Source of the DNA: Bryoerythrophyllum caledonicum
Taxonomy: Eukaryota; Streptophyta; Bryopsida; Pottiales; Pottiaceae
DNA: 64,000 nt
NCBI GenBank assembly: GCA_963971425.1
Contig: OZ020524.1
Coordinates: forward strand, 8,249,845-8,313,844
Direction of reading: 5' to 3'
Shown: positions 13,663 to 64,000 of the stretch, in pieces
Layout of the letters: every line of letters starts with the position of its first letter
How positions within the stretch are numbered: position 1 is the first letter of the stretch
Position numbers and translations under genes: made by a program
The notes under the pieces: generated by a model
Seen by the model: only the letters and a program-made list of their open reading frames with translations
What the model was told of the DNA's origin: nothing
Database searches by the model: none

Positions 13663-16600
13663 CTACTCCATAGAATTTAGGGCTGCTTGCAAACGGTCGT
13701 CATCGATAGCTTCAGTTTGCATTGCAATATATAGTAATATGTGAGCCTTTGCCGATTGAAGAATGCGAATCTTGCTTTCAACCTGCACTCCAAATACATC
13801 GTGCTTTCTCCACCCACTCGCCCTAGACATGGTTCTTTCCAGTGTGTCTACCCATGAAAAAATGTATGCATCTTTCTCTACCCAACTATGGCTCTCTCCA
13901 GATGGCTCCCACAATGAATCCATGCAATTTGCATACCGTTGTGCAGAAGACCCATGTCCATCAACAAACCTATATCTTAAGTCTCCATTTTTTTTTTCCT
14001 TCCTTAATCACTTTCCCTACATAGAATGGTACACCGCCTCGTATTTCTGCTCGATCAATACTCAAGGATACAAATTGTCCACAATAGTTATCAGATTGTG
14101 GATTAAATGGTGGAAATGGGTTGTGATTACCTTCATACATTGCTCTTTCTTCGGCTTGTTCCTCAACATAGTTGCGCTCTGTTCGTTGTGCCCTACGCAG
14201 TGCTTGATTAGAGGGTCTTCCTCTACAAGGGCCAAAGTATCATCGAGCCTCGGCATTTGGAAGCATGGCCACTACCTGCTCTACGACATCTATCTCGCGA
14301 TTTTCTTCACTTGCACCATTCATTACATGCAAAGATGCACTCTCTGTAGGTCCGGTGTTGGAGAAACTCTGAAGGCCAAAACGGTGAGGAACGATGCTCA
14401 TTACTACGGTCTTTGTGTGGAAATACAGCTAAATAGAGTTTCAATCTTTCAACCTGTACTTTTGCCTCACAATTCTTGTCCTCATGCTGCAACCTTTGAA
14501 TGCACATTCATTTACATACAATGAAGTCATCCAACGCCTTCAACTCCCGTTTGTCCGCTGCAAATACTTGCGCAAACGATGGCCGCACATCCCTACTTGG
14601 CAAGGACCTCAAAGTTTTTGTCCCTGCCTCCGGTCCCCATGGATCCTTGCAATAATGCTTGTGTTGTACTCGAATCTCACGAGTCCATATAGAATCGAAT
14701 GTGGTACGGAAATGTTATGCCCACTAATGAATCATGACCTGTCAGTAAGTGAAGAGTTATGAACAATTTCCAATCCCATACATTCTCTAGCAGCCGGGCG
14801 CTAACGAATGCCTTCGTAGGAGATGTTCCTCGTTCTGTAAAACTAATTATTTCCTTCAACAAATCCACGTCCGACCTCTTCAACATATTTGATATACAAC
14901 TCAAGCGTTGATCAATATCTTTGTGTGTATGGCCCGCTATAAGAAAAGATAGTTCCACGTCCTGAAAATACCCCAATCCCACCAATGTAGCACATAGAGC
15001 AAACATATAAATGTTTTTGTTCTCGCGTGTGTAGTTGTTCGCCTGGATTTGTAATGTTGGTGGCAAAAAGCCCTTCCTCCGCAGCACATCTCCTATCACG
15101 TACAACAATGTACTCACGACTTGATTGCTATCGTGTTTGTGGTGAGCCCCAAACCACACGTCGCAATATAAACCAATCCCATGTATAAGAGCACCACATA
15201 GATGGGTCTTCACAAATCGGTGTTCAATGTTCTTCACAGTCTGACGCATCCTCGGTACCATGGTCGTGTTTTGGTCCATGCCATCCACTATGATGCACAT
15301 GTACAACTCACGGCTAATATAATACGACCTCTTGAATATCCAATAATGCATACGTTCTTCCATCTGGTTGTGCAAATGCAACATAAACAATTCCTTAATC
15401 TTTATTCTTGCATTCACATTGGTGATTCTTTCCATGGCACATTTATACTCCCAACATTGATAACACTTTGAGAATCTCGAGAATGGAGGTACCTGAATGT
15501 GAGGATATCAGATGCCCCACATCCTCCGGAACAAGCTGATTGAAATGGTATCCCAATTACAAATTATCTTCACCTCCTCGCTCACGTAATTGAATACATC
15601 AAATTTGGTTGTGTTCATAGGAAGGAGAATGAGAGGCACCACTTCGTTGTCACTCTTACGGCGAATACAGCAATGAGGTTGAGGACAACCAGCTTTATCG
15701 ACAAACGATCTAAAGCAAGCCTCTGCCGTAGACATTCTAGTGCTCTCTCTGATCGGATCTGAAAGGGTATTGCCGTGAATTGATGTCATTCTTACATATA
15801 TTAGACAGTCCTTCTTCAATTGCTTAAAGCGCCTCTATGAATATCCAACCCCAAGAGCGTAGCAAACATTGCAAACTCGTTTTTTATAACTTTGTTACAA
15901 ACTTGTCTCGACAAGTTCCTTCCGTCATTGTGTAAAAAGAAACCAGCATCTATCTCATCCACGTACTTTGTATTGAAAACTCATTAGCCCATGCACTATA
16001 TCGAATGTCCAGTAGATACCTTGTTGGAACGTCCCTCAAACAATTGCGTTTGCATCCTCCTTGTGCTATTGCAATTTGCACGCTTCTAAGCGATACCTTA
16101 GATGGTGCAGCTTCTGTCAATGATGGCTCTCTTGAATCTCTCCTTCTCCTATTTTGCATAGAATAGGGACGACGTGCTGGTCTAAAATAAGCAAATCCAT
16201 CTACATGGGGCAAATCTTGGATATTTGAGGGAGTAGGTTGGAAAAATGGTGAATTTTCATCTACGACGTTAGAAGCTTGACTATTGCGTCAAGACTTCTC
16301 GGTTGATCCTGGTGTGTTGATGAACTCAGGAAAATCAAATTTCGGGGCCATCATTTGTAAAGGCGTTGTTTGTAATCCAACGTCACGATGGACACTTGTA
16401 ATATCAGGTTCTACAGCCACTATACGTAGCAAAGACCAATGCCAACGAATGATCAAGCCTACACACATGTTAAGGCGTTCTCCTACAATCTCTCCGGTCC
16501 AATGCAATGCATCATCTACCCTAGTGATACGCACCGCCACCTCGAATGGGAATACCTTTGATCTATTCAATTGCATGCCACTTTTGAATGCATGCTCCCT

Positions 16601-45639: not shown

Positions 45640-47913
45640 ATGGTGGAAACTAGTCGTGATTACCTCCATGAGCCGCTCCTTGTTTGAGTCATTCCTTAGC
45701 ATGGTTTTGTTCCGTTCCTTGTGCCCTACGCACAACTTGATTAGATGATCTTCCTCTAGAAGGACCAAAGTATATTTCGAGCCTCAGCATTTGGAAGCAT
45801 GGCCACTATCTAGTCGACGGCAGTGATCTCGTAATTTACTTCACTTGGACTGTCCATTGCATCCACGGCTGCAGTTTTAGCAGGTGCAATGTTGGACACC
45901 TCTGAAAGCCAAAATGGTGAAGAACGATGGTTGTTGTTGCAGTCTTTGTGTGAAAATTCAGGAATATAGAGTTTTAACCTCTCGGCCTCTTCTTTTGCAT
46001 CACGGTTCCTATCCTCATGCTGCAATCTTTGAACACACTTTTGTTTATATACAATGAAGTCATCCAACGCCTTCAACTCCCACTACAAACACTTTCGGAA
46101 TAGTTGGTCGCTCCTCTCTACTTGGCAATGATCTCAAAGTCTTTGTTCCTATCTCTGGTCCCCATGGATCCTTGCAATAATGCTTGTGCTACACTCAAAC
46201 CTCTTGAGTCCCATCTGGATTATCCATGTAGAAATGCATGTGTTGTTGAAATGTTATGCCCACCAATGAATTTGAACATGTCAGTAAGTAAGAAGTTATA
46301 AATAATTTCCAATCCCAGAAATTCTCTAACAACTAGATGCTAAAAAAAGCCTCCGCGGGAAATGTTCCTTGTTCTACAAGACTAAGCATTTCCTTCAACG
46401 AGTCCACATCCGACCTCTTCAACATACTTGATATACAGCTAAAATGTTGATCAATATCTTTGTGCCTATAGCCTACTATAAGAAAAGAGAGTTCCACCTC
46501 TTGAAAAAACCCCAATCCCACCAATGTAGCACATACTGCAAACATATAAATGTTTTTATTTTTGTGTGTCCAGTTGTCCACTTGGGTGCACAATATTGGT
46601 GGCAAAAAGCCCTTCCTTTGCAACACATCTCTTATCACGTATAACAATGTGCTTACAACGTGGTTGCTATCATATTTGTGGTGAGCTCCAAACCACACAT
46701 TGCAATATAAACCAATCCCATGTACAAGGGCCTTACTCAAATGGGTCTTCACAAACCGGTGTGCAGTGTTCTTCACAACTTGACGCATCCTTGGTACCAT
46801 AGTTGTGTTTTGGTCCACCCCATCTACTATGATGCACATGTACAACTCAAGGCTAATATAACACGACCTCTTGAATATCCAATAATGCCTATGTTCCTCC
46901 ATATGGTTGTGCGGATGCAATATAAACAACTCATTTATCTCAATCCTTGCATTTGCATTGGTGGTTCCCTCCATGGCACATTTATTCTTCCAACAATGAT
47001 AACACTTTGAGAATTTCAAGAATGGGGGTACTTGGACATGGGGATACCTGATGTGCCACATCCTCCAAAATGAGCTTATTGAAGTGGTTTCTCCAATACA
47101 AAATTTCTTCACCTCCTCGTTCGCATAATTGAATACATCAAACTTTACTGTATTCATGGAAAGGAGAATAAGAGGCACCACTTTGTTGTTGCTCTCAGGG
47201 CAAATAGAGGGATGAGGTTGAGGACAACCAGCTTTGTCCACAAATGATTTAAAGCAGGCCTCTGCAGCAGGCATTCTGGTACTCTCTCTAACCGGATTTG
47301 AAAGGGTGTTACTGTGAATTGCCGTCACTCTTCCATATATTAAACAATCTTTCTTCAATTGTTTAAAACACCTCTGCAAATATCCAACCCAAAGAGCGTA
47401 GCAGACATTGCAAACTTGCTTGCCATCTAACTTTGTTACATATTTATCTTGACAAGTTCTTTTTGTCCATGTATAAAAAGAAATCAACATTTGTCTCATC
47501 CACATACTTTGTACAAGAAACTTGGAAGCCCATGCATTATATCCCATGTCCAAAAGATACCTTGCCGAAATTTCCCTTAAACAATTCCGTTTGCATCCTC
47601 CTTGTGCTATTGCCCTTTACACGCTTGCAAGGGATACCATACTTGGTGCAACTTCTATCAAAGATTCCTTGCTTGAAAATCTCCTTCTTCTATTTAGTAA
47701 AGAATATGGATGACGCGTTGGTCTAACGTAAGCTAGCCATCTATATGGAATACATCTCGGATGTTGAAGGGAGTACATTAGGAGAATAGCAAATTCTCAT
47801 CTATGGGATTTGAAGCTTGACTAGAGCGCCGAGACCTCTTGGTTGATCCTAGTGTATTAAATCTCTCGTGGAAATCAAATTCTGAGGCCATAATTTGTGT
47901 AGGTGATGACTGA

Positions 47914-54154: not shown

Positions 54155-54458
54155 CTCAAAACGGACTGCATACATATTACTGTTCACGGATGCATCTGTC
54201 CGATTACCAATGACGAAAATACAAATGGCTGCCAACCTTTGGAGCCCCATAACTTTCTCAGCATTATCCAAATTGGGCACATAAGATGTTTTCTGGAATT
54301 TGATTTTTTTTAAATGCCAAAAAGCATCTCATATGTCCAATTTGGATAAATTTTGAGAAAGTTATGGGGCTCCGAAGGTTGGTAGCCATTTGTAGTTTAG
54401 TCATCATTAATCGAAAAGATGCTTCCGTAAACAGTAATATGCCGTCCGTTTTGACAAC
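54155..54458. repeat. 300-bp foldback hairpin element
   Basis: Arms of about 130 bp are nearly perfect inverted copies: AAACGGACTGCATACATATT on the left pairs with AATATGCCGTCCGTTTTGA on the right, and CTTTGGAGCCCCATAACTTT with AAAGTTATGGGGCTCCGAAG. The loop is about 30-40 nt. No coding capacity. It could be a foldback MITE or, if transcribed, a long hairpin RNA precursor. Confidence 0.8.
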
Positions 54459-56169
54459 CTTGTTTGATATGAATCATGATGGATGAGATAATATCCAAGA
54501 TGCATTTTTTTATTTTCTGTTTTTGAAGTCATATTTCACGAGTATCTTTTTGCTTGTGCTTGAGGTAGGGATCTGATTTCTTGTTTCTTTTGCATTTTCA
54601 GGTATCCAAGGAGTTTGATGAAGTGGTGAAGAATATATAAGACTTAGTTCAACTCTTCGTATTACCTCTTGATTTATCATGTACAAATTTAGAGGACTTT
54701 GTATCGCCTCTTATTTCTACATTGGACATATATATAGTGACCATAGTAGTGCAACATGTGCTTCGAATGATGGATGTGAACGTTGAAATTAGTCCAAACA
54801 GTGAAGGTGTATGTTTTTGGTACATCATTTTGGAATCTTAAGCTGCATTTGGAAGCGTTGATGATGGTGAGTTTTTTGGAACCTGATAGTTTTTTGGTTC
54901 ATGAGACGTGAGTTTACATGAGTTTACATGAGTTTACATGAGTTTACAATTTGCAAATTTATAATAAAGGTTAGGGCAGTGGTCGTTTGGTGAATGTGGA
55001 TGTTAGAGTGCTCAAAGAAGTGCATTATTTCAGCGCCGTTTCCCTTGGAACTGTGTTTGAAGAAATGATACTTTCAACACCTTCCAAAAAACTATCAGGT
55101 TCCATCCTCTGTACTTATCTAATTCTTGTGATGTATCTGAGCTACCTAATCTATATATTGTTGATTTCTTACTACAGCACATGCACAATTACTGTGTAAT
55201 ACTTTCAACAAGCTGCATACATTGTCAAGGAGAAGCTTAATTTCATGTGACAACATGCCAAGTACATCTTGAACAACAATAGTCTTGTATGAAAAAATAG
55301 TTATATTTTGCATCCATGCATTTCATTTCGATATGTACAGCTCTCGATTATTGCTCATAAAAGAGTTGCAAACACACTAGTTACAACATCCCTCCCAAGG
55401 AGTGAAATGGATTTGGAAATTTTGACTGATCAACTTCAGTTATTGTTGAAACCTATATGCCCAATTCAACTATTTCTGGACTATGAGGTGAATTCTGGAC
55501 TAAGGACTAAAAGAAAGATCCGGAGATGTGCCTTATAAAAGAGAGTGAAGCGTAAAAGCCGAGGAGTTTCGAGTACTTTCCAAGCATTAAATGCATCACC
55601 AATGACACTTATGAAGGAAGAAATGGCTAGAGCGACCAAATTTGAATTTAGACAATACGTGAGTCCGGAACATGCAGCCGGATATCTCCGGGTGAATATC
55701 AAAGTGGAAACCAGAAGAAGAACCGAGTCCTGAAAATAGAAATTAATGGACATACTGTACATCACAAATGTGTGGTTGGGAAACATGTGGTAGGGAAAAA
55801 TGGGACAGAGATGCGGACAGAAATTACTCGCAATTGATAGAACATGCAACCGGATATCTCCGGATGAAATCAGAGTAAGAGTCCAGTACTAAACTGTTTC
55901 ATTATAAGAAAGTGTCATACAAAATATGAAGGGTAGCCGTTGATAAGAGGCGCGTGTAATCTACGAAGAATCGAATCAACTATTCTAATTTTAGTGCTTT
56001 ACAGATGCCCTCTACCCGTCCTGTATGGTGTCTCCCATATGTTAGATAATGAACTATAGCCTTTCTAGGATTCTTGAATGGATCTAGATCTGCAACAACA
56101 ACAGATTTAGGCCACAAATAATGCCTTGTTCTAGGATTAAATGAGGCCTTCTTAAAGATGTGGAGAAAC
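54459..56169. other. Intergenic, no firm gene; two variant palindromes
   Basis: Short plus-strand frames at 55308-55538 and 55545-55733 may be remnants of an unrecognised element. The variant palindrome CCGGATATCTCCGG occurs at 55678-55691 and 55850-55863, each preceded by GAACATGCA or a close match, suggesting a short local duplication. Confidence 0.4.
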
Positions 56170-59100
56170 CTAACATAGCTGGGCCTTCGAGTCTGTTTGC
56201 TGGCATAGCAAAAAGAATATCTGATAAGATGTCTGGGGGCAATAACACTTGGGCCGCCTCCATGAGCCTATCTGGACGCATAGGAGACCAGATCCCGACA
56301 TTGAAATACCGCAGTAGTATTCGAATAACATCTGCGGTGTCATCAAAGGAAGGCAGCTGCGCGGATCGGGACTTGGCCGAGTCAAGGACCTCGTCCGAGT
56401 AGAGAGGACCACGGAGAGATATGATTATGACCTGCGAAATAGATGGCACGACCATAGAATTAGAAATTGAACATTGAAAAGAAGAGAAAATATGGTAGGA
56501 GGAACTCAAGTCACATCCTGGACCGGAGATCTCCGGGTGCCCCTCCCAGACCAACGTTCTGCAGTGGAAATGGTCAGGAGAATACTCAATAGAGTTCACA
56601 GATATTAAGGGTGAAGTTTGGGGGCGAGGCACCAACAATAACAAATAAAATGAAGGACCTCAACAAATAACGGTACTGACAAGAACATTTGTCTTCAAAA
56701 TTGAAAGGTCAAAATCCGACAGACATTCATGACGAAACATTTACAAAGCATAGAGTTAATACTATCCAGTATATTTCATTGTTCTAAGGCGCCGAAATTA
56801 TGCCCTTCACCACGGAGCGAGCCTGAGTGGAATTTTTGTCTACTGGATCACTGGCAAACTTCAATTGATTCCGTCTAACAAAGTCGGGAACATCCTCATT
56901 TGACGCTAGCAGTCCGGAGAGCCATGGGAGAAACATGGTGGTCAACCAGGCTTCACCCGAATTCCCAGTCCATGATGGCGGATGAACTGCGCTGAAGAGA
57001 TCGTTAAGGATGTTCTTTAGTGGGGTATCGTCCACAAGCAAGACATCCTTAGGAGATGTGGGCGACGCTTTGCTATTAAAAACTGTCAGGTCCTTTAGGA
57101 AAATTGGCTTCTTTGGATGAGATGGAAGCATATATGATGTTTTTGTGCAATCGGCCTGTGTCAGGATTCTGGCGCCTTCCGAAATGGTAGCACCTTTCTT
57201 GCGCAACTCCTTGATGATATCCACAATATTCTTTTCCAGTACACTGCTCCAGAATGAGACAGTAGCCTTCTCTCCCACGAAGTTCAGGATTTCAGTGGAA
57301 CCAGGCCTTACTTTCATGTCTCTCGGTTGTCCCTGTTTAAATTCCCCCCTGTGCACAAGAACTCCATTTAAGTCAAACACGACATGATAAACCCGTTGTT
57401 GTGTTACCTGATCCTCGATTGGAGGCTCTCGGACGATCGTCGTAAACTTCTTCAGACCTGAACCCAAAATACGAGTACGTCGGCTGAGATGAGGAACTTG
57501 TATAGCTTAGAGAAATTGCAAAGATACATATAAAAGTGTCCCGCACTCAGAACCCAGAAATGCTGGATGAAAGAATGAGCACTATATAGATGATGGCACG
57601 TAAGTATGAATGTCCATATTAGGCACCTGGGACAGTAGGTGTAGTATCCCTAGAAGTCTGAGCTACACCAGCGACTTCAGCAGTCTGTGCGAGGTTTCTG
57701 CCACCGACATCCTTCGACTGTGTTGATCCGGCCGACACCTGAATACCAGTAATGTAGTGGTAAGAACACGGTCTGCAGAGAGTGCACTGTCTTGAGAACA
57801 ATCAAGAAGGTTTGATGGACAAGTAACTGTTCACCTTATCTTTTTGGGCCCTTGTCCGAACTGTAGGCGGAGGAGGAGGAACTTTCGGCACAGGATTCTT
57901 CGCGATTGCCTTCTTCTTCTCTTTTTGAGCCAGCTGCCCGTGGCTCCGTGGAGGGCTGCGCGGAGGGCTCATAACCTGTAATTCACGCAATGTTTGTTGC
58001 GCCGATGCCTCATCCATCGTGTGATCAGTGTCACGCAAAGTCAGGTCCTCGGCAGTCTTGGACACAACTTCTACTTCAGGACGCGTCGTGAAAGGGTTGT
58101 CCAGCGGGAGATCTCCGGGTGCTCTGTGGGTGTGGTCGAACTCCAGGCGATCGGACATTGCCGTGTGATCGTCCAGATCTGGCGGAGGAGAACGTTGCCT
58201 ATCGGAATGCGAATTGGTTTCCATTTGAGAGGGACGCCGTCTACCGTCCAGAGTAGAGTCGCTTATTGAACTAGGCGAGGCACGCCTGACAGCAAGATGT
58301 GGTTCATCATCGTTTACCTGCAATGGGTCGATTGGGGTGCCCGCACCGATGATCCGAGCGGCTGTAGCCAAGGACTCGAGTCTAAAATTGGGAACCGCTG
58401 ATGAACTTGGTTCATTCTGCACATCAACATCAAGCATCGTGGCATCAGTCGTCTGCGTCACATTGACGAAGTCAGTGTGGAATACATTAAAACGCAATAC
58501 GAAATGAAACGGTATCATACACCCGGAGATCTCCGGTTCAAAGTTGTCCGAGTCTACCGGGGGAACTAAAAATAAACATGGCAATGATAAAGACGAGTCC
58601 TAAAGAATGGAGGGCATCCGAATGGAATAAACATCCGGAGATCTCCGGGTCAGGTAGTATCCGTAGGCGTTATACCTCGCCGGTGTAATTCATCCTCGAC
58701 ATAGCCCGTGTTTGAACCCCAGCGCCTTGGGTCGACTCAGTGATGTCAGTCTCTACTAACTCCTCAGGATTGGCGTCGGTAACGTCAGCTAAGATATTCA
58801 AGTGGAATTTGAATATTTGTTCTGCGCAGGATTCGGCATTTACTTTGGCATCTTCGCTGTTCACAATCTCGAGGACCCGCGCGTCGTGAGTCTGCAAACC
58901 AAAAAAAACTTAGGACGGCGATATCCAATTCATATAACTGTATGCGGACCGGAAATCTTAGACATTGGATTGCTTGGGAAGGATGTCTTGCTTACCAAGC
59001 CGAGGTATGTAATATGTGGTCCTCCATGAACATTGACGACCACCATACCCTCTCTGATGTATCCCGTGAACAGCGAATCGAGGACCGAGATCCTCAGCTG

Positions 59101-62100
59101 TGGGACACCGGTTTGCTTCCAGCGCTGGATGGTTTCTTTATGTTGAGCGGCTGAAAAGAAGGCCGGCATTTTTTCGGGGTGGCCTTTGAAGAGCCTCTTG
59201 AATGACTGAGTAGGCGTCTCGCTTGAATCGTATTCATACAGGAATACGCAGTATACTGTCTCCTCGACCCCAATTACTGGAACCGGAAATCCATCACTAG
59301 GGTGGGGGAAGTAGTAGACGACATGCGTTGCCCACAATTTTACCTTGCCTCTGGACTCTCTCTGCCGAAGACTGATGTACCTCTTTAATTCAACGAATCC
59401 TGCGACGTCAGTGATAAGAACCGACGGTGATCTGACCCTCGTCCGCCCGTCCTTCGTGTCCACTTCGAGATGGTCGAAAATGGTTCTGAAGTCAAACACA
59501 TCTAGCACCTGTGCACGGCATATGTCGTCTTTAACGCGGTAAAGGAAAAAGAAGTAAAAGTGAGGGTCAGTGACGTTACGCCACTGCTGAATGTCCGGCA
59601 TGATAAGTACTTCGGCGATCTCGCCCCCTCTGTCAGGCATAACCCTGCAGGTGTATTTGGAGTCGAACAGGGACGTATCATCCGTGGGTGTGGCCTCGGC
59701 AGCATCTTCAATGATGTGTTGACTCCAAATGGACACGAGGAAGTCTGGAGTGGGGTCGGTATCCTTGTTTATCGCCTTCAGTCGACCCTCAAGCCAAGCT
59801 TTACCCTTGGCAGAGTGATTAGCGGCGTCGACCCAGGACTCGAGCTGGACCCTTCCAATATTCCTGTCTTCGGCAAATGCGTCCCACTGCTCCTTCGTGT
59901 ATGGGACGAAGTCAACAGACTTCGAGGGAAGGGGGTGCGACTTGTATTTAAGCATTAGTTCATTCTTCATTGCACGGACTCTCTTCTCTCTGTTCGCCGC
60001 GTTTTCGAGAGTCTCCGCCTGCCCTTTCATAGTACCTTGGTTTGCCGCTTTGGAGGACTTCACACAGACCTTCTTCTCGAGCACTAATTCCGCGAGGTAG
60101 TCTAGGTCTTCAGCGCGCATTTTGTAAAGAGGCTTGAAGTCGTTCTGCACCAGAGGTTTCCGCTTCAGCTTAGCTGGGTCCCCCGTCTTCCCGTTGGAGT
60201 CTGGTAAGACTCGAGCGACGAACAGCCTGTCGATTCGGATCCACTTCTGGACCACCGCATCATCCATCTCAAATAGAAGTGGGACCTTCCCGTCTTTGGG
60301 GTCTGTTTTACCAAGGTGTGTAAAAACCGTTGGCACCACTTGCCATTGGAACGTCTGCAATGAAAACAATTACAGGGTGTAAGCAGCCGGAGATCTCCGG
60401 ATGATTGGTTTGGTTGCTGTGAGGATAGAGCACATCCACGGAATAAAAAATATTTTCAGGTTAAGAATGGTAATTTACCGAGAATGCGTCAGATTGAGGA
60501 CGACCATACAGTTGGGGGGCTGGTTTACCGAACTCAAACCACTTCACTCTGCACGTCTGCAGCTGCTCAGTGAAACTCTGCTCCTTCCGCAAACCCGTCA
60601 GATCTTGGTTAAGAGCGCGCGAGAGCTGTAGCAGGGTCATGTCTTTGGGGTCCGGTTTTGTCCAAACCGGGATGATAGAGAAGTGGGAGATCTCTTCGAG
60701 CATCCACGTTGTTGGCAATTCGTGTGATAGAACCTTGTGCGCCGCCACAGTATGCTGACCTCCGATAATGTAAAAGTGTGTCGAGTCCCTCAGGCAGTCC
60801 TCCTTCGTCGGCTTGGTCGCGAAAAACTCTACCTTACTTCCTTCAGGTTTCTTCTTCAGTGGCAGGACTCGAATGTGAATCTCAGGTGCCGTGGCCTTCG
60901 AAGACGCGCGAACTGCGTTGATAATTCCTTCAAGCCGTTCTTTCTGGATGCCCCTATATACTAATCCTCCAGGGGGGGCCCGGTGCAGCTTATCGAAATG
61001 AACGAGCTTCACGACATCCTTCTTCGTGTCAGGGTCTTCTACTGTCAAAGGCTTATTATTGTGTATGTAAACGTTTTTGAACGCGTCGTCGAGTACCTTA
61101 CCAATTGCTTCCACTTCAGTCCGCTTCATTTTGGTGAGGTCAGCCTGTGTGAAGTTCAGGCACCTTTCGATCGCGAGGCCAGGCTCATCGGCCTTCGCTT
61201 TCTTCCCCTTCTCCGCCCGCGATGAAGAACCTGGGGTCGAAGTCTTCAAGGTGGTCTTGCGTTTTCTTGCCAAGGTCGATGCTGGTGTCAGAGACAGATT
61301 GGGAGTTACGTCTTGAACGGGCATTCGGGACTTCTCTTGTGCTTCAGCCATCCACTTCCACTGCTCATTCACGTACTCCGGATACCACGTATCACCCGTT
61401 GGAGGGGCAAATAAAAAGTTCTCACTCTGGCAGGTCTCCACCATCTCATCCGAAATCTTAGATGATTCAAGGATCAAGCCGTATATATGTGGCTCGGTGG
61501 AGGAGTCCACATTCTCCTGGACGATAACGAGACTGACCTCGTCATCAAGACCCTGCAACTCGAGAACCTGGAGACCAATGTCGGGGTGACCCCGTTTGCC
61601 AATCCGAAGCTGAGGGACGAATTCCCAGGCACCATCAGGGGTTTTAATGAGCTTGATGCCCCACTGGGTTATGCTCTTTCGGCAATTGTATACGTAGCCG
61701 ACATTGTGTATCCCTCTGTAGACAAACTCAGGGAGCCAATACTCTACAAATGCCCCAAGTTTCCCGGGTCGACATTCAGTCGAAAGTGTGGTTGTCCACG
61801 AATCCCTGCAAGATGATTTTGAAAGAACAGGCAGGAAGTTTAGAATCGATGCAATTGTCTGGTCAATAACAAGAATCCGAAACAAAATCACCTGACAAGT
61901 TCCTAGATGTTGAAACCATGAATCGTGCTTCCAAATCTGTATCACAGTGCCATCAGGGGATAGTACCCGGAGATCTCCGGCTGATTTGGGGAAGTCGAGT
62001 GCATCCGACAAGGAACGAATCCTGGCTGCTCTGACGGGTCTATTTCTGACCTGAACCGGAGATCTCCGGTTAATGACCCCTCAACGCGAATTTCCACTGT

Positions 62101-62241
62101 TTCGATACGTCCGGAGACCTCCGGCTGCTTTCGAGAATAACTAACGCCTGTATAGGGTATACATATTCATCTGATCGCTACATCATCCGGAGAACTCCGG
62201 CTGATTACTGGAACTCCGTATTTTCAGCCGGAGATCTCCGG
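55678..62241. repeat. Cluster of 12 CCGGAGATCTCCGG palindromes
   Basis: Exact copies start at 56523, 58523, 58635, 60387, 61967, 62056 and 62228. Single-mismatch copies start at 55678, 55850, 58105, 62111 and 62187. In the ParB-like gene, five are in intron 1 (within 275 bp), one in intron 2, two in intron 4, one in exon 5 and three in the 3' flank. I saw no other copy in the window; only half-sites CCGGAGAT at 21309 and 55520. By established analogy ParB binds palindromic parS sites; that these are binding sites is inference. Confidence 0.85.
56170..56431 (-). pseudogene. Second HAD/FCP1-like exon, active site lost
   Basis: An exon-like block with acceptor AG at 56433-56432 and donor GT at 56169 lies downstream of the stop of the large ParB-like gene. 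Its reading VIIISLRGPLY, then ADVIRILLRYFNVGIWSPMR, parallels VVFDLNGVLVH and EILNFVGEKATVSFWSSVLE of the intact HAD domain at 57.2-57.4 kb. The nucleophile Asp is replaced (SLRG instead of DLNG), so phosphatase activity is not expected. One exact CCGGAGATCTCCGG lies just upstream at 56523. It may be a degenerate tandem duplicate of the last exon or part of another decayed gene. Confidence 0.4.
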
Positions 62242-62855
62242 CAGAAGCACATACGGCACTTCGAAGCACTAATCGGATCATATCAGGACTCGAATATTTA
62301 CATTCATTTACAGAGAGGTTTGACGTGTAACTCTTGAAGTTTGACATACTTAAATAACAAGTTACATAATTGAGAACATAAATATATGTATCAAATGAGC
62401 TCACACAATTCTGTTATAGCTCGACCTTACACACTAGAAGAAGAATCCGCTAATGTTTCGATGGAACGCCAAATTTGACGACTCTACATGAATTTAACTA
62501 TATACATTGAATCGAACCAGACTCGACAGACTCAGTGAGGAAAAACACATTCAAACATTCCTGGAATTCCAAAATCATTCGCATATTCATGAATAGATAT
62601 ACAAATATGTTCACGGGACAACAAAAAACCAATCGACTATAGCCAAACAGACAGCTGAATTCTAGTACGCAATTTTTGAGGTTTTTCAAAATCATTCAAG
62701 TGTTTGTCCACTCCGAAATTAGAACTAATTCGGAACTCACTCAAAAAAAGGAAACCCACCTGGTCGCCCGGACTGAGCATAAACAGTTCGATTGTGTATA
62801 CTTACCGGTTTCCATCCCACGCAGTCTCATCCGACGTCGCTGCCGTAGTCGCCAT
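56784..62855 (-). CDS. ParB-like / methyltransferase-like / FCP1-HAD fusion protein
   Basis: Exons, 5' to 3': 62855-62806, 61805-60479, 60354-58996, 58891-58676, 58452-57835, 57738-57627, 57457-56784. All six introns are GT-AG and frame-preserving; total 4,356 nt, 1,451 aa. The start ATGGCG is in good plant context and the first donor is GTAAGT. Residues 1-200 are unrecognised; a basic linker (EKGKKAKADEPG) lies near 215. Residues about 300-440 look ParB/sulfiredoxin-like: KERLEGIINAVRAS, FYIIGGQHTVAAHK (near 362-375), FSIIPVW, LQLSRALNQ. Residues about 820-970 resemble a worn beta-class DNA methyltransferase: VLITDVAGFVELK for motif IV, then GMVVVNVHGGPHITYLGL and ARVLEIVNSED for motif I onward, without DPPY or FxGxG. 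A Ser/Pro/charged linker (985-1190) ends in PPPPPTVRTRAQKDK. Residues about 1250-1400 are an FCP1/NIF HAD domain (VFDLNGVLVHR, FWSSVLEKN, VLLVDDTPLKN). Codon-like composition is GC-richer than the surroundings. Function unknown. Confidence 0.7.
61806..62805 (-). promoter_or_regulatory. Intron 1 with dense five-site palindrome array
   Basis: A 1,000-nt first intron, far longer than the gene's other introns (96-223 nt). Its 3' half contains five of the twelve palindromes at spacings of 89, 55, 76 and 41 bp between start points. First introns of plant genes often hold regulatory sites; an autoregulatory operator or parS-like array is a natural guess. Confidence 0.45.
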
Positions 62856-63999
62856 TTCGCAATCTCCTCCAGTAACTGCTCTGGATTAAAGCGTATACAC
62901 AACTCTGCAGTACATAAGCATTCAACAACTCAGAACGACAAACTATACAATCTCTCAAATGCCCTAGAATGTATGGTCCAGTTCTGACATATAGGAATTC
63001 GGTGGAATAAATTTCAACACTGCATAAATTGCTCAATTACGGCCCTTCGAAACTGAATGCACAGAACACTAGAACCCTAAACCCTAAATCCTTCTATTTC
63101 TCTCAAACGATTATCAACATCAGTACTATTCGACTCTCTCGAACCCTAATGAAGCTTACCGAACCCTACACCTGCTCTAGTGACGATTCTATGAAGTCCT
63201 GTGCAAATTCAACTGAAATTTCAGTGAAAGCCATTTTTGAGACTTTACATACCTCTTCACTTGCCGAATCGGCGCACCCGTACGTCGTGGTCGTTCGTGT
63301 TGACGCCACCCTCAACCGCAACGTCGTTCACTCTTGGCTGCTGAACCTAGGCGCTCTTCAACTCTCTTCCTAACGCATTCGCTCTCTTTCAGTCCTACTC
63401 TCTGACCTTCAGTCCATATCCAGTTAACAACCTCTCCACGGCACGTTCAACGTCCCTCACATAAATCAACACTCACCTTGCACACCAACGGCCTCTCACA
63501 GCGCATACGAAACTAACCTAATGCGTCGACGCCGACTCCGCAAACCAAGAAAGAAAACCCCTCCCGCCACTTCCGCTCACTACCTTCGACATTACGAAGA
63601 CAAAAGCCAAAAAAATCAAGAAATGGTTCATTCTTGGAGTTCCTAAAACCCAAAGAGGACAAGCTGGACGGCTCAAGGGTGTGACGGCTCATGATGACAG
63701 TGGGTGAAGTTAAAAATCAGCTGAAATGATGTACATGTACAACGTGTCCATTTCACAATCATGACATTGTCAATGTCGTGAGCATGCGTGAGAAGACGTA
63801 TTGATACCCGGTTTCATGGGTATTAGATATGACTATAATAGATACTCGGGTTCACCGGGTATTAGAGTAATAATTATACTTGAATTTAAAACGACATTAG
63901 TGGAAAAGCTGAATCTCCCTTTCCGTTACTCTCCCTCCCTTCTTTCCCTCACTTGTTTTTCTTATTTTTGTTCTACTCTCTCCTCCTTCTCCATCTCCA
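62856..63999 (-). promoter_or_regulatory. Putative promoter/5' UTR of the ParB-like gene
   Basis: Sequence upstream of the ATG. It contains ACCCTAAACCCTAAA at about 63074 and further GAACCCTA repeats (telo-box-like motifs, common in plant promoters) and ends in a pyrimidine-rich tract. At 63800-63870 two variants of GATACCCGG...GGGTATTAG occur in tandem. No palindrome copies are present and no other gene is convincing. Confidence 0.4.
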
Positions 64000-64000
64000 T

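Follow-up and report, generated by a model that had tools for sequence, protein, structure and literature searches.

The 64,000-bp window analysed here (Bryoerythrophyllum caledonicum, contig OZ020524.1, positions 8,249,845 to 8,313,844) ends within an 18,189-bp class II DNA transposon, which is multicopy and recently mobile. Around a predicted gene for a regulator of 1451 amino acids (aa), this element carries short palindromic dyads, which are under selection at the level of the propagating lineage. The most likely reader of the dyads is a protein encoded by the element, the most likely such protein is the 1451-aa regulator with its GGQHT motif, and the most likely outcome of binding is anti-silencing or activation. 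That the regulator binds the dyads as a family-specific anti-silencer or activator of the 18-kb transposon, comparable to the VANC proteins of VANDAL transposons, has in our judgement slightly better than an even chance.

The palindrome CCGGAGATCTCCGG was found at 12 sites in 55678-62241, seven exact and five with one mismatch, by a scan of all 64 kb allowing up to 3 mismatches. This reproduces the cluster of 12 palindromes in 6.6 kb reported in a preliminary description of the window. The confinement to 6.6 kb claimed there holds inside the window, where no 13th site was found elsewhere at up to 3 mismatches, but not beyond it, since 11 further sites (up to 2 mismatches) follow past the window end. 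In 100 dinucleotide shuffles of the window the mean was 0.67 matches and the maximum 3, ruling out a chance origin of the 12-site cluster. The placement described earlier, eight sites in introns and three in the 3' flank, agrees with the seven-exon gene model presented below; intron 1 contains five sites, intron 2 one and intron 4 two, and the remaining site lies in coding exon 5:

55678..55691, 3' flank: subterminal site, variant CCGGATATCTCCGG, identical over 14 bases in all five copies having the region
55850..55863, 3' flank: subterminal site, variant CCGGATATCTCCGG, identical in four of five copies, with two additional mismatches in copy C1e
56523..56536, 3' flank: palindromic site, exact
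58105..58118, coding exon 5: palindromic site with one mismatch, reading APGDLP
58523..58536, intron 4: palindromic site, exact
58635..58648, intron 4: palindromic site, exact
60387..60400, intron 2: palindromic site, exact
61967..61980, intron 1: palindromic site, exact
62056..62069, intron 1: palindromic site, exact
62111..62124, intron 1: palindromic site, its mismatch private to the window copy among the copies compared
62187..62200, intron 1: palindromic site, its mismatch likewise private to the window copy among the copies compared
62228..62241, intron 1: palindromic site, exact

The limits of the surrounding element were set by comparison of its copies, by the inverted termini and by the target-site duplications. 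The window copy (C12) occupies C12:8305301-8323489, and its left part comprises:

55453..55456: left copy of the 4-bp target-site duplication CTAT, the right copy lying beyond the window end
55457..64000: in-window part of the transposon, which continues for 9,645 bp past the window end
55457..55482, plus strand: left terminal inverted repeat ATGCCCAATTCAACTATTTCTGGACT, 26 bp

Five further copies (C1a, C1b, C1c, C1d and C1e) were compared with it; C1c is truncated and one copy is without the left terminus. C1e has perfect 26-bp repeats at its two ends, and 4-bp target duplications flank all four copies for which the left and the right end were located (CTAT in the window copy, TAGG in C1a, ACAA in C1b, TACA in C1e). 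Across the genome searched (437 Mb, 894 contigs), a 31-bp pattern of the right end matched at 290 places with up to 3 mismatches, its control at none. The six copies of subfamily A show 1.3-2.3% divergence over the left 7.3 kb.

The genome contains 2718 exact matches to CCGGAGATCTCCGG, compared with 3 for the reversed control, and 4841 at one mismatch, compared with 58 for the reversed pattern. All 50 distinct exact places listed, out of the 2718, fall in four copies of the element, including a truncated one. Other genomic loci repeat the sites at identical spacings. The possibility raised in the preliminary description that the palindrome is a general dispersed repeat unrelated to this gene family is rejected by these 50 of 50 places. 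In every copy fetched the 14-mer clusters round the gene, and the intronic palindromes are fixed despite diverged introns, so that gene and sites are likely to be functionally linked.

Sites with up to 2 mismatches number 23 each in C12, C1a and C1d, 22 in C1b, 21 in C1e and 11 in the truncated C1c. Pooling of all 123 revealed that the dyad exceeds 14 bp and has the 20-bp consensus YAN-CCGGAGATCTCCGG-NTR, with A at -2 in 85 sites, T at +15 in 107, a pyrimidine at -3 in 102 and a purine at +16 in 102. Such 20-bp symmetry would be as for a dimeric DNA binder.

Groups of sites occupy intron 1 of the regulator gene, the neighbourhood of the transposase-like gene and the regions close to the two ends of the element. 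Four lie in subterminal positions, 222 and 394 bp in from the left end and about 365 and 128 bp in from the right; they have the centre GATATC instead of AGATCT and are kept in all five left parts and all six right ends, some with 1-2 further mismatches. TnpA of En/Spm exemplifies a transposon protein that binds numerous short motifs in the element encoding it. Its sites are subterminal, whereas those described here are found throughout the element including the regulator introns. The dyads may nevertheless be transposition sites, at which a TnpA-like accessory protein or the transposase folds the element and joins its ends. The conservation of the four subterminal sites in all ends compared speaks for this, and sites at the ends as well as in the middle would be well placed to compact an element of 18 kb. 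We regard this explanation as unlikely, though to be taken seriously: of the 23 sites in the window copy, 19 are interior, with many in introns and beside both genes rather than in subterminal arrays. The interior sites are conserved too, and a joint role is compatible with these data.

Conservation of the sites was evident in comparisons between copies. In the noncoding left half of C12 and C1e, 5 of 154 site bases differ, compared with 556 of 2853 other bases (p=7e-9); the right half, where the alignment is poorer, gave 23/140 and 664/2042 (p=5e-5). Nine of the ten comparisons made (five pairs, two halves) had p<=0.015. The noncoding class near the left end takes in some probably coding sequence, which lowers the contrast. 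Between subfamily A (six copies) and subfamily B (two copies), none of the fixed noncoding differences falls in the 154 site bases, compared with 342 in 2814 bases elsewhere. Private mutations of the six subfamily A copies, in contrast, occur in sites (6, with 115 elsewhere; Fisher p=2.9e-4 against the fixed counts), where the sites' share of noncoding private changes is 6/121 and their share of noncoding bases 154/2968. Therefore, mutations do arise in the sites but are not retained by the lineages that spread.

A mutational cold spot is rejected by the ordinary rate at which private mutations reach the sites. This bears on a wider explanation, namely that the palindromes are kept without any protein binder by gene conversion, a cold spot or an intronic RNA hairpin. 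In its favour, any palindrome can fold back on itself within a single strand, and introns hold 8 of the 12 sites in the window. The subterminal sites, however, lie outside the modelled gene bodies, and the symmetry resumes past a free position to reach 20 bp. We consider maintenance without a binder very improbable.

The regulator gene lies on the minus strand and, in the window copy, is open over 1451 aa in seven exons with all six introns bordered by GT-AG. The exon model was built by eye from the sequence, without RNA support:

62806..62855, minus strand: exon 1, with the start codon
60479..61805, minus strand: exon 2, with a conserved domain containing IIGGQHTV, VYRG and LNQ, ParB/sulfiredoxin-like in motif only
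58996..60354, minus strand: exon 3, 453 aa, no family match in Pfam and NCBIfam
58676..58891, minus strand: exon 4
57835..58452, minus strand: exon 5, a fast-evolving region
57627..57738, minus strand: exon 6
56784..57457, minus strand: exon 7, with a C-terminal NIF/FCP1-type phosphatase-like domain (residues 1251-1417; PF03031, E 4e-12)

GT-AG is present at all six introns in all five copies examined. A crude count of dN/dS, broken copies included, gave 0.30-0.44 in four pairs, and the gene is under constraint. Read by the C12 exon plan, the regulator gene is free of internal stops and frameshifts in only one of five copies, the window copy; exon 2 lacks stops in 49 of the 95 genomic copies scored, out of 1370 candidates. 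NIF/FCP1-type phosphatases usually have DxDx(T/V). At this position the regulator carries DLNG, so its NIF/FCP1-like domain may bind rather than cut phosphate. A profile search with exon 2 returned seven relatives (P0002-P0008, 31-52% identical, E 2e-136 to 5e-37), among which VYRG, IIGGQHTV and LNQ are invariant. In scans of viral and prokaryotic contigs, the patterns of this family matched 26 and 13 stretches, respectively, none of them a relative, and a plasmid scan yielded no relative either.

The second main gene of the element, on the plus strand of the right half, includes a 650-aa frame matching PF25273 DUF7869 (Pfam, E 1.9e-44), and we infer that this protein is the transposase. NIF and DUF7869 were the only Pfam matches of the two main element proteins. 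A literature search on DUF7869 found no paper bearing that name, and no title naming the 18-kb element was found in a search judged mostly by titles and abstract openings. The transposase-like gene keeps its two long frames open in just one of five copies, C1a. The first of these frames holds an internal stop in the window copy, which is lacking in C1a; the window copy may therefore need other copies to move. Between the two genes, from 63940-64000 onward (L006), there is a repeat with units of about 430 bp, whose copy number varies among element copies and which contains no palindromic site in the window copy. Two shorter elements of the window (14677-15507 and 46333-47616, minus strand) encode another DUF7869-type protein, about 24-26% identical to that of the 18-kb element; no perfect palindrome of at least 10 bp recurs three times in them.

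A second family of elements has a different dyad. A genome search with the relative P0003 found eight places on high-numbered contigs with 45-48% identity to P0003 (seven top-ranked, one lower), whereas the window family is 35-37% identical to P0003 (99 of 1213 candidates scored). The two second-family contigs seen are 100,928 and 23,018 bases long. A stretch on contig C836 has homologues of exons 2 and 3 with 35-36% identity to the window family. No CCGGAGATCTCCGG dyad was found in this stretch within 2 mismatches (three at 3 mismatches). Instead, it contains 16 places within 2 mismatches of TCGKGRGATCYCMCGA in 7.9 kb, 11 of them perfect, compared with a mean of 0.2 in a Markov simulation of 30 sequences. 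Upstream of exon 2 there are nine of these places, at the position that intron 1 takes in the first family, and the interval from exon 2 to exon 3 holds two. Four more fall within an open frame that has a 108-bp tandem repeat, and the last is close to where this frame starts. The four sites in the frame (L036:411-750) are 108 bp apart, each reading SGDP, and second-family dyads thus seem to spread with the tandem repeat. A second copy, 97% identical and hence not independent, has 11 TCGKGRGATCYCMCGA places in 3.5 kb. In the window and the six element copies, there is only one place within 2 mismatches of TCGKGRGATCYCMCGA, in C1e, where it overlaps a CCGGAGATCTCCGG site. With their flanks both dyads comprise 20 bp with the core GRGATCYC, differing mainly in two positions outside the core.

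This change of the dyad between families is the strongest sign that its reader may be a protein evolving with the element, the co-divergence of protein and dyad resting on two families. It also bears on the idea that a host protein, a transcription factor or a silencer, reads the sites and that the element either exploits it or is its target. The symmetric, CpG-rich dyads do resemble transcription-factor sites. However, among the 50 listed places the motif occurs only in this element, a related family with another dyad is unexpected for a single host factor (although the second family may be another organism's), and a host silencer would not select for keeping its sites. A host reader is improbable.

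Noncoding transitions between subfamilies were about as frequent at CG as at CHH (0.063 and 0.066 for C12/C1d, 0.104 and 0.106 for C12/C1e). Other repeats at the same loci, mostly older and represented by 101 partly overlapping alignments, had values of 0.214 and 0.114. For CpG, the observed/expected ratio is 0.86-0.89 within the element, compared with 0.60 over positions 1-55000 of the window. The propagating lineage may be little methylated in its noncoding parts.

These observations can be combined into the following scheme for the VANC-like anti-silencer. One strand of the cut-and-paste-type transposon encodes a DUF7869 transposase-like protein, the other the 1451-aa regulator, and about two dozen 20-bp dyads are grouped in intron 1 of the regulator gene, next to the transposase-like gene and close to both ends. 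Binding in cis and in trans alike, the regulator would occupy these dyads as a symmetric multimer. Family copies bound in this way would be marked, chromatin silencing would be lifted or held off, and the genes of the element could then be expressed, as VANC does for VANDAL.

Several points weigh against this scheme. The repeats serving as control for the methylation footprint are older and their alignments overlap, and in the coding DNA of the element CG transitions exceed CHH transitions (0.081 and 0.045, C12/C1e). Private C-to-T changes of inserted copies amount to 0.009-0.014 at CG/CHG and 0.004-0.005 at CHH in coding and noncoding DNA. Because of this enrichment at CG and CHG inserted copies are probably methylated, and standing protection from methylation, sought in the private mutations of six copies, was not found. 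The footprint fits anti-silencing but could also fit any lineage propagating from active copies. Regarding the sites, their conservation was not significant in the right half of C12-C1d (7/139 and 174/2096, p=0.2). TCGKGRGATCYCMCGA was defined and counted on one and the same stretch, only part of the second-family element was seen, and this family was found on high-numbered small contigs only, which might stem from another organism. Furthermore, none of five copies has both genes fully open. Alternatively, the binder might be the transposase-like protein, which co-diverges with the remainder of the element.

The preliminary description had assigned a ParB/sulfiredoxin-like domain to the regulator and had proposed a eukaryotic ParB/parS-like system, and neither was borne out. 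The regulator and its relatives have no match to ParB profiles in Pfam or NCBIfam. PF02195 (ParB_N) matched none of the eight sequences (the window protein and seven homologues) and nothing in the whole genome at E<=10, the same search being positive in 11 of 14 control genomes. In all eight sequences the arginine of the GxxR P-motif is replaced by threonine (GGQHT). Matches on the GGQHT stretch were limited to sub-threshold ones, of P0007 to a ParB-like phage family (E 0.04) and of P0003 and P0008 to DUF6551 (E 0.03 and 0.09), and sub-threshold matches to unrelated families occur as well. Phage P1 ParB, entered as a single sequence in a profile comparison, gave a probability of 0.3%; of two PDB sequence searches one had no match and the other a single chance match to histone (E 1.9). 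The mean pLDDT of the AlphaFold2 models, 39 and 42, is too low to read a fold. Owing to the missing profile match, the lost GxxR arginine and the poor structure predictions we do not file the regulator as ParB; its likeness is to one motif only, and a ParB identity is not established.

A survey of ParB-CTPase-fold proteins, in the parts of the article available, uses a mutated GxxR arginine as binding-dead control and describes orphan ParB-fold proteins as often linked to mobile elements (PMC12704722). The element described here shares with such proteins the palindromes near the gene, a G-x-Q-H motif and the link to a mobile element. VirB, according to the accessible sections of PMC10770331, is a ParB relative that acts as an antisilencer and is thus a parallel for a protein countering silencing. 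Unlike ParB, our system has no above-threshold profile match, threonine for the P-motif arginine, no ParA among the frames tested and a eukaryotic transposon as its setting. Palindromes clustered round a gene with a GGQH motif, together with the sub-threshold matches to the ParB-like phage family and DUF6551 on this motif, could be taken to indicate a partition or segregation system. Yet no ParA-type match was found among the element frames submitted to Pfam, which are a part of all frames, and an element integrated in chromosomes, with 290 right-end places, needs no partition. A role in partition or segregation is thus hardly conceivable. A different use of the ParB scaffold, which we regard as rather doubtful, would be a ParB-derived DNA clamp turned into a family-specific anti-silencer. 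Loading at the dyads of its own element and spreading from the clusters in intron 1, at the transposase side and at the ends, it would keep the whole 18-kb element open, its NIF/FCP1-like tail would act on RNA polymerase II or chromatin, and protein and dyad would change together.

A few other features were noted. A Tc5/pogo-type transposase fragment lies at 1965-2453 of the window on the minus strand (HTH_Tnp_Tc5, E 2e-7), and a 300-bp stretch at 54156-54454, left of the element, is 81% self-complementary and resembles a small hairpin element. Rfam and tRNA scans of the window gave no matches. Just past copy C1d (L022:6720-8642), eight copies of another palindrome, CTCGGTACCGAG, were found within a 2-kb stretch (up to 2 mismatches) that is T-rich in part and close to LINE-like frames. 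The four contig ends examined have CCCTAAA/TTTAGGG arrays, i.e. telomeres of the plant type; at the right end of contig C12 (L027:2050-2200) the TTTAGGG repeats grade into degenerate TTTAAAG repeats.

VANDAL transposons belong to the MULE superfamily. As far as the available text of the cited articles goes, VANC proteins lift the silencing of VANDAL transposons in Arabidopsis (PMC5735166, PMC10398659), and VANC motifs lie in noncoding regions and introns of VANDAL genes (PMC5735166). By the same partial sources, both systems have a transposon-encoded gene other than the transposase, and short motifs that are repeated in its own introns, upstream and in noncoding DNA and are enriched in the family. 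The targets of VANC6 differ in motif from those of VANC21, just as the dyads differ between the two families described here. In contrast, the VANC21 motif is given there as 9 bp, non-palindromic, in one orientation and tied to tandem repeats, whereas ours is a 20-bp dyad and mostly dispersed. Our element also differs in its DUF7869 transposase-like gene, 4-bp duplications and GGQHT and NIF-like domains. On this evidence the system would be closer to VANDAL/VANC than to ParB/parS in its working, and we file it under neither.

For annotation, the exon-intron gene at this locus is to be treated as a transposon gene and not as a host gene. In Arabidopsis, VANDAL/VANC is a documented case of a transposon that counters silencing in a sequence-specific way, as far as the consulted parts of that literature extend. 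A second type of element, its dyads selected and changing from family to family, would point to repeated origins of self-marking of this kind. Two families with two dyads and two proteins of 35-36% identity form a test bed for mapping specificity. If the GGQHT domain has a ParB fold, this would place a DNA-clamp fold in eukaryotic genome conflict, and a true clamp would mean that a VANC-like system has arisen independently on a ParB-type scaffold.

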